From contig NZ_PEJS01000001.1 of NCBI RefSeq assembly GCF_002750975.1, forward strand, positions 1,984,001-2,048,000: 64,000 nt of DNA, in the 5' to 3' direction. A program made the position numbers and the translations under genes. Shown piece after piece: positions 50,056-55,150 of the stretch. The stretch's first letter is position 1. Every line of letters begins with the position of its first letter. Source of the DNA: Stenotrophomonas indicatrix (lineage in GTDB: Bacteria > Pseudomonadota > Gammaproteobacteria > Xanthomonadales > Xanthomonadaceae). Below the pieces are notes generated by a model, which did not search any database, was not told the origin of the DNA, and saw nothing but the letters and a program-made list of their open reading frames with translations.

Positions 50056-51003
50056 ATGCGCACGCTGTACCCGCCGATTACCCCGTACCGCGAACACACG
50101 CTGCCCGTGGATGCACTGCACACCCTGCATGTCGAGGAGTGCGGCACGCCCGATGGCATTCCGGTGGTGTACCTGCATGGCGGTCCGGGCGCTGGCATCT
50201 CGCCCACTCACCGCCGCTTCTTCGACCCCAGGCGCTACCGCATCGTGCTGATCGATCAGCGCGGCAGCGGCCGCTCCACGCCCTTCGGCGAGCTTCGCGA
50301 CAACACCACGCAGCATCTGGTGGCCGACATCGAGAAGATCCGCCAACACCTGGGCATCGAGCGCTGGCTGGTCTACGGCGGCTCCTGGGGTTCGACCCTG
50401 TCGCTGGCCTATGCACAGGCGCATCCCGACCGCGCCACCGGGCTGATCGTGCGCGGCGTGTTCCTGGGGCGCGAGGAAGAGAACCGCTGGTTCGCCGAGC
50501 TCAACGGCGGTGCGCGCTGGATCTTCCCGGAGCGCTGGGATCGCTACCAGGCGCACATTCCGGAAAGCGAGCGCGGCAACATGCTCGACGCGTACTGGAA
50601 ACGCCTGGACCACGCCGACGAAGCCATCCGCATCGCCGCGGCACAGGCGTGGCTGGGCTGGGAAGACAATGCCGCCACGCTGCTGCACGACGTCGACGCG
50701 GTGTCCGCGACCGATCCGCTCGATACACTGGCCAAGGCACGCATCGAGGCCCACTACTTCCGTCACAACACTTTCCTCAAGCACGGCCAGCTGCTGCGCG
50801 ACATCGATCGCATCCGCCATCTGCCGGGTGTCATCGTGCAGGGGCGCTACGACATCATCTGCCCGCCGCGCAGTGCCTGGGACCTGGCACAGGCGTGGCC
50901 GGAAGCCCGGCTGGAGATGGTCATCGCTGGCCACAGCGCCAACGAAGCGGCCACGACCGATGCCCTGGTGCGGGCCACCGACGCTTTCGCGGACCACAGC
51001 TGA
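50056..51003 (+). CDS. pip: Proline iminopeptidase
   Basis: 315 residues. Alpha/beta hydrolase of peptidase family S33. Oxyanion region VVYLHGGPGAGISPTHRRFF; DQRGSGRSTP; nucleophile elbow YGGSWGSTLSLAYAQAHP; acid GRYDIICPP; catalytic His in VIAGHSANE. It removes N-terminal proline from peptides in the cytoplasm. A strong terminator follows directly. Confidence 0.94.
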   Translation: MRTLYPPITPYREHTLPVDALHTLHVEECGTPDGIPVVYLHGGPGAGISPTHRRFFDPRRYRIVLIDQRGSGRSTPFGELRDNTTQHLVADIEKIRQHLGIERWLVYGGSWGSTLSLAYAQAHPDRATGLIVRGVFLGREEENRWFAELNGGARWIFPERWDRYQAHIPESERGNMLDAYWKRLDHADEAIRIAAAQAWLGWEDNAATLLHDVDAVSATDPLDTLAKARIEAHYFRHNTFLKHGQLLRDIDRIRHLPGVIVQGRYDIICPPRSAWDLAQAWPEARLEMVIAGHSANEAATTDALVRATDAFADHS

Positions 51004-51005
51004 AC

Positions 51006-51029
51006 AAAAGGGGCCAACGGCCCCTTTTT
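51006..51029 (+). terminator. Rho-independent terminator of pip
   Basis: A perfect 10-bp stem AAAAGGGGCC / GGCCCCTTTT with an AAC loop and a T run starts three bases after the pip stop. The A/T arms make it work in both directions. Confidence 0.92.
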
Positions 51030-51030
51030 C

Positions 51031-51044
51031 TATACCAAGGTATA
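51031..51044. promoter_or_regulatory. Short palindrome upstream of the magnesium locus
   Basis: TATACC-AA-GGTATA is a perfect 6-bp inverted repeat just after the terminator and about 95 bases before the leader ORF. It could be an operator or promoter part for the mgt transcript; no known binding site is matched. Confidence 0.35.
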
Positions 51045-51138
51045 GCCGGGCTAACCCACGGGCCTCTAGGCCTGCTGAATACGAGCGCCGACAATAGCGC
51101 CACTGGCCAGCGACTGGCCGCCCCACGCGGAGACGCAG

Positions 51139-51228
51139 ATGGATCCCGACCCTGCCGGGCGCAACGCGCGCCCCTGCCTGCCTATTTGTTCACTGCTGGC
51201 GACTGACGGCCGGTTCCTGTCCGTGTAA
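51139..51228 (+). CDS. Putative leader peptide of the mgtA transcript (MgtL-like start)
   Basis: A 29-codon ORF, ATG 51139 to TAA 51226-51228, with GGAGA five bases before the start. It begins MDPDP and reads MDPDPAGRNARPCLPICSLL before the last nine residues. Enterobacterial MgtL begins MEPDPTP; its alternating acidic and proline residues destabilise ribosomes when Mg is low and so switch on mgtA. The same Asp-Pro-Asp-Pro pattern at the same place, 40 bases before a hairpin and the mgt genes, suggests the same kind of control. The remaining residues do not resemble MgtL. Confidence 0.6.
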   Translation: MDPDPAGRNARPCLPICSLLATDGRFLSV

Positions 51229-51240
51229 GCGATGGGAGCC

Positions 51241-51259
51241 CCGGGCAGCGCCTGCCCGG
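51241..51259 (+). promoter_or_regulatory. Hairpin touching the ribosome site of the 99-residue ORF
   Basis: CCGGGCAG-CGC-CTGCCCGG is a perfect 8-bp stem. The 3' arm runs directly into the Shine-Dalgarno GGAGGAA (from 51258) of the ORF starting at 51269. Folding would partly hide that site. It begins 12 bases after the leader-ORF stop, so a ribosome on the leader could affect its folding. Confidence 0.6.
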
Positions 51260-51268
51260 AGGAATCCC

Positions 51269-51568
51269 ATGTCCTACAAGATTCTCTACATCACCGTGCG
51301 CCGCCTGATCGGTGAGCGCGATGTTTCCGCCCTGCGCAGCCTGCTGCTGCAGCACGGCCCTGTCCTGTTCGCCCGTTCGCTGGCCCTCGGCTCGCCACGG
51401 GTGGTGGCCGACGCACTGTCGCTGCTGCCGATCAGCGAGCGCATCAACGTGCTGCGCCACCTGCCCTACCCGCTGCGCGATGCGATGAAGCCGCTGTGCA
51501 TCGGCGGCAGCCAACGCTTGCGCATGCAGCCCTGGTCGCCATCGGTGCTGGCCATGCGCCACGCCTGA
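51269..51568 (+). CDS. Small MgtE-N-like protein upstream of mgtA
   Basis: 99 residues. The middle, PRVVADALSLLPISERINVL and RHLPYPLRDAM, matches the superhelical repeat of the MgtE cytosolic N-domain (IAxxLxxLPxxxRxxVLxxLP). That domain senses Mg and gates the MgtE channel. There is no membrane segment or CBS domain, so it would be a free soluble copy of this kind of domain. It lies between the leader ORF and mgtA on one strand and probably on one transcript. The relationship is read from pattern only. Confidence 0.7.
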   Translation: MSYKILYITVRRLIGERDVSALRSLLLQHGPVLFARSLALGSPRVVADALSLLPISERINVLRHLPYPLRDAMKPLCIGGSQRLRMQPWSPSVLAMRHA

Positions 51569-51627
51569 TACCCCCCTTCCGCTCCACGCGCCGGCTGCGC
51601 CCGGCGCCGCTCCAAGAGGACCTTCCC

Positions 51628-54387
51628 ATGAGCCTGCTCAACGCCTGGTTCAACGCCTTCCTGCGCAGCCGTCGCGCGGGCAACCTGTTCGGTCGTCGCG
51701 CGATGCCCGAAGCCGGGTATGGCCGTGGCAGCACGCAGGCCGCGCCCACCGCGCTCACTGCTGGACTGCTCGCGCTTGCACAGGGCAGCGAAGCCGATGC
51801 GCTGGCCACCCTGCAGTCACATGTCGATGGTCTCAGCCCGCACGAGGCCGAAGAGCGCCTGCTGCGCTTCGGCCCCAACGAGGTCGATCACGAGAAGCCG
51901 CTGCCGTGGTGGCGCCATCTGTGGCAGTGCTATCGCAACCCGTTCAACCTGCTGCTGACGGTGCTTGCGGCCGTGTCCTGGCTGACCGAAGACGCCAAGG
52001 CGACGGTGGTGATCGGTGCGATGGTGGTGCTGTCCACCCTGATCCGCTTCGTGCAGGAGGGGCGCTCCAACCGCGCCGCCGAACGGCTGAAGGCGCTGGT
52101 AGGCAACACCGCCCGCGTGCTGCGCCGCGCTGCGGGCACCGAGGCGGCGGAGGTGGCCGACCAGTATTTCGGCGCACAGCTGCACAGCCGGCGGCCGGCA
52201 CGGCTGCTGGACCTGCCCATCCGCGACCTGGTACCGGGTGACCATATCGTGCTGTCGGCCGGCGACATGATCCCGGCTGACTGCCGCGTGCTCGCCGCCA
52301 AGGATCTGTTTGTCGCACAGGCGGCGATGACCGGCGAATCGCTGCCGGTGGAGAAGTTCGTGCAGCCGGGCAACGCCGACGCCGGCCTGATGGAACAGGC
52401 CAACCTGTTGTTCATGGGTACCAATGTGGTGTCCGGCACGGCAACAGCACTGGTGCTGGCCACCGGCAACACCAGCTACTTCGGCACCCTCGCCCAGCGC
52501 AGCAGTGCCAGCGATCGCGCGCCGACGGCATTCCAGGCCGGGGTCAACAGTGTCAGCTGGCTGCTGATCCGCTTTGCCCTGGTGATGGTGCCGTTCGTGC
52601 TGCTGGTCAATGGCTGGACCAAGGGCGACTGGACAGAAGCGTTCCTGTTCGCGCTGTCGGTGGCAGTCGGCCTGACCCCGGAAATGCTGCCGATGATCGT
52701 CACCTCCACCCTGGCCAAGGGCGCGGTGCTGCTGTCGCGGCGCAAGGTGATCGTCAAGCGCCTGGACGCGATCCAGAACTTCGGTGCGATGGAAGTGCTG
52801 TGCACCGACAAGACCGGCACCCTCACCCAGGACAAGATCGCACTGGAGCGGCACACCGATGTGTTCGGGCAGGATTCGGAGGATGTGCTGACCTTCGCCT
52901 ACCTCAACAGCCACTTCCAGACCGGCCTGATCAACCTGCTGGATCGTGCGGTGCTGGAGCATGTGGAGCTGCAGAGCTCGCTGCGCCTGTCGCAGGACTA
53001 CCGCAAGGTCGATGAGATCCCGTTCGACTTCGAGCGCCGCCGCATGTCGGTGGTGGTATCCGAGCGCGAGGACCATCACGAATTGATCTGCAAGGGCGCG
53101 GTGGAGGAAATGCTGGCGGTGTGCAGCACCGTGCGCGAGAACGGCAAGGATATGCCGCTGGATGAGCAGCGCCTGGCCCGGGTGCGGCAGACCACCGAGG
53201 AACTGAACGAACAGGGCCTGCGCGTGGTGGCGGTGGCGATGAAGGAAACCTCCGCCAGCCAGACGGTCTACTCGCAGGCCGACGAGCGGGATCTGACCCT
53301 GGTGGGCTATGTGGCCTTCCTCGATCCGCCGAAGGAATCCGCTGCTCAAGCACTGCAGGCGCTGGCCGCGCATGGTGTGGAAGTGAAAGTGTTCACCGGC
53401 GACAACGAACTGGTCACCGCGAGGATATGCGCCCAGGTCGGCCTGGACGCCGACACGATCGTGACCGGCCCGCAGATCGAGCGCATGGACGACGCTGCCG
53501 TGGCGCGTGCACTGCAGGAGCACCGCGTGTTCGCCCGCCTCACGCCCCTGCACAAGGAACGGCTGGTGCGCGAGCTGCGCGCGCAGGGCAAGGTGGTCGG
53601 CTTTCTCGGCGATGGCATCAACGATGCTCCCGCACTGCGCGCCGCCGATATCGGCATCAGCGTGGACAGTGCGGTGGACATCGCCAAGGAGGCCGCCGAC
53701 ATCATCCTGCTGGAAAAGAACCTGATGGTGCTGGAGGAAGGTGTCATCCAGGGGCGGCGCACCTTCAGCAACATGCTCAAGTACATCCGCATGACCGCCA
53801 GCTCCAATTTCGGCAACGTGTTCTCGGTGCTGGTGGCCTCGGCGTTCCTGCCCTTCCTGCCGATGTTGCCGCTGCAGCTGCTGGTGCAGAACCTGCTGTA
53901 TGACATCTCGCAGATCGCCATTCCGTTCGACAACGTGGATGAGGAGCTGGTGCGCAGGCCGCTGAAGTGGAACCCGGCGGACATCGGCCGCTTCATGGTG
54001 TTCTTCGGTCCGATCAGCTCGATCTTCGACCTCAGCTGCTTCGCCCTGATGTGGTACGTGTTCGATGCACGCACGCCGGCCGACCAGGGCCTGTTCCAGT
54101 CGGGCTGGTTCGTGGTCGGGCTGCTGACCCAGACGCTGATCGTGCACATGATCCGCACGCCCAAGGTACCGTTCCTGCAGAGCATCGCCGCGCCGCCGCT
54201 GCTGCTGATGACCGGGGCGATCATGGCCATCGGCGTGATCCTGCCGATGAGCCCGCTGGCCGGCCACTTCAAGCTGCAAGCATTGCCGGCCGGCTACTGG
54301 CCGTTCCTGGTGGCGATCCTGTTCGGCTATGCGGTGCTGACCACCGCGCTGAAGAAGCTCTACATCCGTCGCTACGGCTGGCAGTAA
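51628..54387 (+). CDS. mgtA: Magnesium-importing P-type ATPase
   Basis: 919 residues, ATG 51628 with AAGAGGA upstream. P-type motifs: TGES in AAMTGESLPVEKF, the phosphorylation loop CTDKTGTLTQDK (D394), KGAVEEM in the nucleotide domain, GDGINDAPALRAADIGISVD, and the type IIIB ending with LPLQLLVQNLLYDISQIAIP. It keeps the FDNVDEE segment typical of MgtA/MgtB. It moves Mg into the cytoplasm and is usually induced by low Mg. Confidence 0.95.
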   Translation: MSLLNAWFNAFLRSRRAGNLFGRRAMPEAGYGRGSTQAAPTALTAGLLALAQGSEADALATLQSHVDGLSPHEAEERLLRFGPNEVDHEKPLPWWRHLWQCYRNPFNLLLTVLAAVSWLTEDAKATVVIGAMVVLSTLIRFVQEGRSNRAAERLKALVGNTARVLRRAAGTEAAEVADQYFGAQLHSRRPARLLDLPIRDLVPGDHIVLSAGDMIPADCRVLAAKDLFVAQAAMTGESLPVEKFVQPGNADAGLMEQANLLFMGTNVVSGTATALVLATGNTSYFGTLAQRSSASDRAPTAFQAGVNSVSWLLIRFALVMVPFVLLVNGWTKGDWTEAFLFALSVAVGLTPEMLPMIVTSTLAKGAVLLSRRKVIVKRLDAIQNFGAMEVLCTDKTGTLTQDKIALERHTDVFGQDSEDVLTFAYLNSHFQTGLINLLDRAVLEHVELQSSLRLSQDYRKVDEIPFDFERRRMSVVVSEREDHHELICKGAVEEMLAVCSTVRENGKDMPLDEQRLARVRQTTEELNEQGLRVVAVAMKETSASQTVYSQADERDLTLVGYVAFLDPPKESAAQALQALAAHGVEVKVFTGDNELVTARICAQVGLDADTIVTGPQIERMDDAAVARALQEHRVFARLTPLHKERLVRELRAQGKVVGFLGDGINDAPALRAADIGISVDSAVDIAKEAADIILLEKNLMVLEEGVIQGRRTFSNMLKYIRMTASSNFGNVFSVLVASAFLPFLPMLPLQLLVQNLLYDISQIAIPFDNVDEELVRRPLKWNPADIGRFMVFFGPISSIFDLSCFALMWYVFDARTPADQGLFQSGWFVVGLLTQTLIVHMIRTPKVPFLQSIAAPPLLLMTGAIMAIGVILPMSPLAGHFKLQALPAGYWPFLVAILFGYAVLTTALKKLYIRRYGWQ

Positions 54388-54412: not shown

Positions 54413-55150
54413 ATGGACTTCAACCCCCACCTGCCCGCGTTCAACGCGGGCGCCACCCTCAGCTCGCTGATCAGCCTGTCCGTCGCCTTCGTGTTGGGTG
54501 CACTGATCGGCCTGGAGCGGCAGTTCCGCCAGCGCACCGCCGGCCTGCGCACCAATACGCTGGTAGCGGTGGGCGCAGCGGTGTTCGTCGACCTGGCCGT
54601 GCGCTTCCACGACCTGTACGGCGGGCCACCGTCACCACTGCACGTGGTGGCCTACGTGATCTCCGGCGTCGGCTTCCTCGGTGCCGGCGCGATCATGAAG
54701 GATGGCGCCCAGGTGTCGGGCCTGAACACCGCCGCCACGCTGTGGGGCTCGGCGGCGGTCGGCGCCTGCGCCGGCATCAAGCTGCTGCCTGAAGCGGTAC
54801 TGGCTGCGGTGTTCGTGCTGGCTGCCAACACCCTGCTGCGGCCGGTGGTGAACCGCATCCAGCGGCAACCGCTGCCGGAAGCGTTCAGCGAGGCCACCTA
54901 TGCCATCAACGTGGTCTGTCAGCGTGAGCAGCAGGCCGAGGTGCTGGACCGGCTGCTGCTGTTGCTGGAGCAGGCGCAGTACCCGGTACGCGCGGTCGAC
55001 CAGCGGCCGTTCGGCGAGCGCGATGTCGAGATCGAAGCGGTGCTGTACGCCACCACGGTCGATGGCGCTGAACTGGATGCAGTGCTGGCAACGCTGGCCG
55101 CCACGCCGGGCGTGCTGCAGGGATTCTGGAACGCCAGCCTGGAGGAGTAG
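54413..55150 (+). CDS. mgtC: MgtC/SapB-family protein
   Basis: 245 residues. The N-terminal membrane domain is typical of MgtC: VLGALIGLERQFRQRTAGLR, TNTLVAVGAAVFVDLAV, GVGFLGAGAIMKDGAQVSGL and NTAATLWGSAAVGACAGI. A C-terminal ACT-like cytoplasmic domain follows (ATYAINVVCQREQQAEVLDR). In Salmonella MgtC inhibits the F-ATPase and aids growth at low Mg; here it follows mgtA by 25 bases. Its TAG stop forms part of the first GTAG palindrome downstream. Confidence 0.93.
   Translation: MDFNPHLPAFNAGATLSSLISLSVAFVLGALIGLERQFRQRTAGLRTNTLVAVGAAVFVDLAVRFHDLYGGPPSPLHVVAYVISGVGFLGAGAIMKDGAQVSGLNTAATLWGSAAVGACAGIKLLPEAVLAAVFVLAANTLLRPVVNRIQRQPLPEAFSEATYAINVVCQREQQAEVLDRLLLLLEQAQYPVRAVDQRPFGERDVEIEAVLYATTVDGAELDAVLATLAATPGVLQGFWNASLEE

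Follow-up and report, generated by a model that had tools for sequence, protein, structure and literature searches.

Does the short open reading frame (ORF) that begins Met-Asp-Pro-Asp-Pro upstream of mgtA in Stenotrophomonas indicatrix act as a magnesium sensor read by the ribosome, in the manner of the enterobacterial MgtL leader? An original prediction had raised this possibility for the window, i.e., the whole 64,000-nt stretch of S. indicatrix DNA analyzed here, in whose numbering all coordinates below are given. We consider it fairly probable that the ORF is a Mg2+-sensing leader that is read by the ribosome and that would control the genes for an MgtE_N-like protein, MgtA and MgtC by way of an RNA hairpin. 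As judged from the DNA, the locus has a leader, conservation at the level of its peptide, a predicted hairpin over the next start, and linkage to Mg2+ genes. A Mg2+-sensing leader is thus well supported by comparison, whereas the RNA pairing that would do the switching is not.

The leader peptide and its operon

The predicted 29-codon ORF with a ribosome site and an MDPDP start is real. On the forward strand, the ORF (51139..51228) starts with an ATG at 51139, ends with TAA at 51226-51228, and encodes MDPDPAGRNARPCLPICSLLATDGRFLSV; it is preceded by a Shine-Dalgarno GGAG at 51129..51132. Both features were read directly, and none of the four GGAG positions varies across an alignment of 22 Stenotrophomonas rows. 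However, the leader does not lie directly before mgtA, and this reading was rejected because a 99-aa ORF (51269..51568, forward strand) intervenes. The gene for MgtA, a Mg2+ P-type ATPase, begins only at 51628 (51628..54387, forward strand; TIGR01524 1327.5 bits, cut-off 610.75) and is followed on the same strand by mgtC for an MgtC family protein (54413..55150; PF02308, E 8.2e-36). The arrangement is, therefore, a short ORF with a ribosome site and an M[D/E]PDP start, upstream of mgtA with one gene between.

Two further elements were considered around the leader. The palindrome CTATACCAAGGTATAG (i.e., CTATACCaaGGTATAG; 51030..51045, without strand), which lies ∼100 nt upstream of the leader, is a possible operator. 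It is conserved, with small changes, across the seven Stenotrophomonas rows printed and is degenerate in group g17; the window genome has one site with ≤1 mismatch to GCTATACCNNGGTATAGC, which is this palindrome, and three with ≤2. An intrinsic terminator inside the leader is unsupported, as a terminator scan of 50900-51700 returned none.

Several lines of evidence argue that selection acts on the leader peptide and, specifically, on its first residues. First, the proposed check on conservation was run on 46 distinct leaders from 49 loci, and MxPDP is kept while the remainder varies. Pro3 and Pro5 are present in all 46; residue 2 is Asp in 44 and Asn in two, residue 4 is Asp in 43, Glu in two and Val in one, and the start codon is ATG in 45 and GTG in one, with the qualification that most of these leaders were located by a pattern demanding [D/N]P[D/E]P, even though the loci were fetched via the small protein. 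Leader length ranges from 16 to 57 codons across loci, and an alignment of 19 leaders has M1, P3, D4, P5, and R8 as invariant. Second, the peptide appears to be what is kept because Pro3 uses all four codons and Ser6 in the leaders of a second order uses AGY as well as TCN codons; Asp uses both of its codons. Third, all 23 loci fetched from named records with the 99-aa protein have the leader upstream. It starts MDPDP[A/S]GR in 22 and MNPDPAGR in one (L018), and its second half changes among these loci, in L006 and L022 by frameshift. All 14 loci of groups g7 and g17 likewise have an M[D/N]PDP leader with an otherwise different sequence, e.g., MDPDPHRRGVSAAF, MDPDPHPRGAIATL, and MDPDPDGRFAAS.

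An acid is lost in three leaders, namely those of L018 and L037 (MNPDP) and of L158 (MDPVP), and in these loci mgtC follows without an mgtA in between. The 30 leader loci that include mgtA all retain both acids; as these loci are related, they do not count as 30 independent cases. Two loci were dropped from the leader set, L047 and an antisense chance match (L167), and the Stenotrophomonas loci L029 and L095 were left out of the tabulation. For L078 and L079, it was the leader pattern, not the small protein, that retrieved the locus.

How often such a start would be met by chance was gauged with the pattern GGAG-N3..10-ATG-GAN-CCN-GAN-CC. It has one match in the window genome, the leader itself, and the backward pattern also has one. 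Across 299 genomes of the order there are 28 matches in 27 genomes versus 14 for the backward control; 17 of the 28 are the leader, two are leader-like sequences in other families (L078 and L079), and nine are apparently unrelated. The loci fetched by means of the small protein provide stronger evidence than these pattern counts. In a second set fetched with the 99-aa protein, M[D/N]PDP lies upstream in 23 of 24 loci (a set that shares strains with the 23 of 23 above), the sole exception being L047, a marginal match inside an unrelated enzyme frame. A class-wide search with the pattern gave matches in 14 of 369 genomes, 12 of them new; in none of these 12 did tblastn detect MgtA, MgtC, or MgtE in the fetched locus. 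Among the matches listed in the open literature, no paper describes an MxPDP leader in xanthomonads or the small protein.

A small MgtE_N-like protein and the genes behind it

The protein encoded between the leader and mgtA belongs, on the basis of homologue searches and alignment, to a family that we regard as a distant relative of the N domain of MgtE. The N domain of MgtE has a part in Mg2+ gating. An alignment of 25 relatives, 98-143 aa long, has 16 invariant columns. The relationship is most visible in the copy of L144, which matches MgtE_N (PF03448) with E 0.0017 and 19.3 bits and FliG_M equally well (E 0.002); the copies of L044 and L046 give weaker MgtE_N matches. MgtE_N was listed for three of nine small proteins scanned, the best of which, at 19.3 bits, stays below the curated PF03448 cut-off of 25.9 bits. 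The window copy has no Pfam match and was not listed in a PF03448 search of its own genome, and a profile search of ten small proteins against solved structures gave a best E of 0.69. The family thus shares with the MgtE N domain the distant match of the L144 copy, and an MgtE_N protein also stands behind the L079 leader; it differs in being stand-alone and 98-143 aa long. These observations suggest that a stand-alone, small MgtE_N-like protein is an undescribed partner tied to Mg2+ genes.

The leader travels with this protein family and not with mgtA. A search of named records with the 99-aa protein found 23 loci, 21 of them titled Stenotrophomonas, and the same query against 297 genomes of the family gave 24 positives, of which nine belong to the window's genus (itself included), 12 to g7, which we presume to be Xanthomonas-like, two to g17, and one, marginal, to g51. 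Because only 14 of the 297 genomes have an mgtA match above the cut-off, none of them among g7, mgtA is patchy in the family. The gene behind the small protein in g7 is MgtC in 10 of 12 loci (Pfam check on two), and in L043 and L044 the mgtC start apparently overlaps the last base of the stop of the small ORF; in L018, mgtC directly follows the small gene. Overall, 44 of the 49 loci with a leader, drawn from two orders, have at least one of mgtA, mgtC, and mgtE downstream, and five (L038, L042, L078, L079, and L166) have none of the three in the stretch read. The leader and small gene stand ahead of mgtA in Stenotrophomonas, in one other genus and in another order, ahead of mgtC in g7 and in the other order, and once ahead of mgtE.

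Two peculiarities were observed among these loci. L038 and L042, whose g7 genomes measure 3.5-3.7 Mb, retain the leader and the small protein but have another gene where mgtC would stand; by eye, it reads like an efflux adaptor. One contig, L014, bears the title of a Rickettsia endosymbiont yet contains the Stenotrophomonas operon; it is probably mis-binned.

Starting from mgtA gave a complementary view. Screening 299 genomes of the phylum gave 57 mgtA-type matches. Upstream regions were inspected for 34 that were not previously known, and the 18 matches scoring <900 bits were excluded, as was one located at the end of a contig. Seven of the 34 have a leader: six in family f187 (L122-L127), which we take to be enterobacterial and of MgtL type from the RF01056 match of L122 and from the MgtL leader of enterobacteria, and L144. 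In L144, which belongs to another order than the window, the leader is followed by a 139-aa protein related to the small protein and then by mgtA. When 200 genomes of L144's family were searched with alignment A6, 11 proved to encode the small protein; six have an MDPDP, VDPDP (GTG start), or MDPEP leader, one has MDPVP, and four have no such leader. In this second order, mgtA follows the small protein in L156, L164, and L165, mgtC in L158, L159, and L161-L163, and mgtE in L157. No Mg2+ gene was found behind it in the stretch read of L160 and L166, where the L166 gene reads, by eye, like rho.

In L078 and L079, from other families of the window's order, leader-like sequences stand ahead of a gene of another kind, and L079 also encodes, on the same strand behind the leader, a 121-aa MgtE_N protein above the Pfam cut-off (31.9 bits). 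A protein family with [A/G]RP[L/M][L/V]TDDA near its start (L048:538-1263, L078:3-200, and L079:1648-2373) lies ahead of mgtA in L048 (by eye) and behind the MDPDP/MDPEP leaders of L078 and L079; the L078 and L079 copies match by BLAST with E 2e-6, and the L079 copy has no Pfam match. A different element, which includes a tiny ORF of the form (V/M)GT[C/S]S[S/G]DS, is shared upstream by mgtA loci of other families (L133:1001-1330, L134, L135, L138, L132:879-956, and L048 at about 180-360). BLAST ties the L133 element to L134, L135, L138, L132, and a short piece of L142, and L048 was added by eye; no Rfam match was found in L048, L132, L133, L138, or L142. This element is perhaps a second kind of Mg2+ leader.

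RNA hairpins and the proposed mode of control

Two hairpins are predicted in the leader RNA. The first, H1 (51154..51177, forward strand; stem 51157-51162 with 51168-51173), lies directly 3' of the DPDP codons (roughly ORF nt 16-40) and occurs in Stenotrophomonas, g17, and g7. Its stems differ by lineage (GGGCGC/GCGCCC, GCGGCG/CGCCGC, and GCGUGGCG/CGCCACGC), and 97.7% of its helix cells are paired in the 22 Stenotrophomonas rows. Its shuffle z ranges from +0.6 to −4.4 across rows, is unexceptional in many, and is −1.0 in the window. The position also folds in several second-order loci and is weak or absent in L078, L079, and L158, and the L018 and L020 stretches fold otherwise there. Judged by its position, H1 would come into contact with the entry side of a ribosome that holds Pro3 or Pro5 in its P site.

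The second hairpin (51232..51270, forward strand; −28.3 kcal/mol) spans both the start of the 99-aa ORF and its Shine-Dalgarno (GGAGG at 51258-51262), so that the ribosome site of the next gene would be hidden in a stem. Each of the 19 folded sequences has a hairpin that covers the small gene's ribosome site (in L078 and L079, that of whichever gene comes next), with z from −0.2 (L020) to −4.4 (the window). It was also found, without shuffle control, in nine of 11 second-order loci, two of which (L160 and L162) have no leader, and is absent at L159 and L161. In full-length folds, it stays in the window, L001, and L018 and is replaced in L019 and L034. Across the 22 Stenotrophomonas rows, 94.0% of helix cells pair versus 41.5-53.5% with the partners slid; only one pair is changed on both sides, and 19 of 500 shuffles reach the covariation score. 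Between lineages, the hairpin differs in sequence and covers the same ribosome site. While the covariation within the genus is modest, this replacement of whole stems is the stronger argument.

We propose a mechanism modeled on published work on MgtL and mgtQ, from which the Mg2+-dependent drop-off and the sense of the switch are inferred. At high Mg2+ concentrations, the ribosome would read the leader to its stop. At low Mg2+ concentrations, a ribosome making Met-Asp-Pro-Asp-Pro would become unstable and drop off near codons 3-5. The ribosome site of the downstream cistron, which encodes the 99-aa protein followed by mgtA and mgtC, would be locked in the hairpin, and upon failure of leader translation, the leader RNA would refold and the hairpin would be unlocked or never form. 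The predicted outcome is that the operon is on when Mg2+ is short.

Some observations speak against this mechanism. Pairing of the leader with the 5' arm of the hairpin is, taken over all 40 distinct sequences, no better than that of shuffled leaders (mean z −0.5; four sequences reach 3/200 or fewer). In 39 of 42 sequences, a free leader lowers the cost of opening the ribosome site, a weak test in that the real leader beats its own shuffled version in only 29 of the 42. Also against the mechanism are the hairpin's replacement in some full-length folds, the unexceptional z of H1 in many rows, a spacing between leader stop and next ATG that varies from 36 to 68 nt (Lysobacterales rows), the four second-order genomes with the small protein but no such leader, and the five leader loci lacking a downstream Mg2+ gene. 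A competing stem that frees the ribosome site, as in mgtQ, was not found to be general.

An MgtL-like outcome, in which leader translation controls Rho-dependent termination before the first gene and the ribosome-site hairpin is secondary, seems unlikely to us. It would fit the MxPDP start and the linkage to mgtA, both as in MgtL-type loci, and a leader that, by eye, is pyrimidine-rich past H1 in several lineages. RF01056 has no match in the window or in L156, L165, L033, L036, and L044; this absence says little because, of the two MgtL-type loci searched, L122 matched and L126 did not. However, no RNA feature is more constant than the hairpin over the ribosome site of the small gene, and a C-rich leader exposed at low Mg2+ would be expected to favor Rho in the wrong condition. 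It is because of the hairpins over the ribosome site that an mgtQ-type outcome is favored.

That the prolines are the sensor, with leader translation slowed by a shortage of charged tRNA-Pro or by missing EF-P, as described for mgtP and MgtL, and with Mg2+ secondary, is in our estimation quite unlikely. Pro3 and Pro5 are the only never-varying residues after Met and more constant than the acids; however, the acids are kept in 44 of 46 (Asp2) and 45 of 46 (Asp/Glu4) leaders, and the leader alignments contain neither an invariant proline past position 5 nor a conserved Pro-Pro. Simple coupling, by which ribosomes ending the leader would open the hairpin or re-initiate, making the leader a positive coupling ORF and not a sensor, we hold to be improbable. 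In its favor, masking to stop+12 cuts the opening cost to 0.2-2.3 kcal/mol in L043-L046 and L078. By contrast, in one g7 type with 65-68 nt from stop to start masking raises it to 8-11 kcal/mol, and coupling leaves the conservation of the first five residues unexplained. Finally, conserved DNA without leader function (an ORF arisen by chance, or selection confined to RNA or promoter) is highly improbable: H1 does constrain codons at the RNA level, with Gly7 being GGG in 26 of 26 Stenotrophomonas rows, but synonymous changes at codons 2-5 with the residues kept occur in two orders, and nearly all loci fetched by the small protein have a leader.

Origin and relation to known leaders

In a tree of 38 MgtA rows, the MgtAs that accompany the leader and small gene form one supported group and those with MgtL-type leaders another, separate one; both hang from one unresolved fork together with MgtAs for which no MxPDP leader was seen. 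We lean slightly toward separate recruitment rather than common ancestry with MgtL. More tentatively, and with more doubt than conviction on our part, a ribosome-destabilizing MDPDP leader and a stand-alone MgtE_N-like protein might constitute a mobile Mg2+-control cassette that can be placed before mgtA, mgtC, and mgtE and that arose apart from enterobacterial MgtL; the small protein would then sense Mg2+ a second time, at the protein level, and act on the transporter or on MgtC.

According to PMC11282234, the ribosome translating MgtL drops off at EPDP at low Mg2+, a finding summarized there from a 2017 paper; substitution of Glu2/Asp4 by Gln/Asn renders expression of an mgtA fusion undetectable, and a toeprint places Pro3 in the P site. 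The outcome at the mgtA leader, according to PMC11552253, is Rho-dependent termination in the case of Salmonella; for E. coli mgtA, evidence of this kind is lacking. The leader described here shares with MgtL the M[D/E]PDP start, the position ahead of mgtA and an otherwise variable peptide (as in L122-L127). Unlike MgtL, it has an extra gene before mgtA and a hairpin over the ribosome site of that gene, is also found on mgtC and mgtE, and goes with a different MgtA group. Thus, the start and the Mg2+ genes downstream bear out the predicted likeness to MgtL, while the intervening gene and hairpin place the locus nearer to Salmonella mgtQ.

Acidic-proline drop-off as a Mg2+ sensor has been worked out in E. 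coli and Salmonella (PMC11282234, PMC11552253, and PMC8092293). Here, nearly the same five residues occur in two further orders, on three kinds of Mg2+ gene, and with an RNA output that looks different from that of MgtL, which suggests a wider use of the ribosome as a Mg2+ sensor. The loci also offer natural leader variants (MNPDP, MDPVP, and MDPEP).

The passages of PMC8092293 on mgtQ describe, between mgtC and mgtB of Salmonella, an acidic upstream ORF and a stem over the mgtB ribosome site, from which that site is released; they also mention mgtQ-like ORFs in other bacteria, including one upstream of mgtB in Brucella melitensis. mgtQ, as described there, has eight codons with Asp2 and Glu5, lies inside its operon and controls mgtB directly, whereas the leader here has 16-57 codons and DPDP, the next gene is MgtE_N-like, and no general counterpart of the competing 2:3 stem of mgtQ was found. 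Both have a short upstream ORF with early acids, a stem in which the next Mg2+ gene's ribosome site is hidden and a hairpin involving codons of the upstream ORF. In its predicted anatomy, the locus is, therefore, a better match to Salmonella mgtQ than to MgtL.
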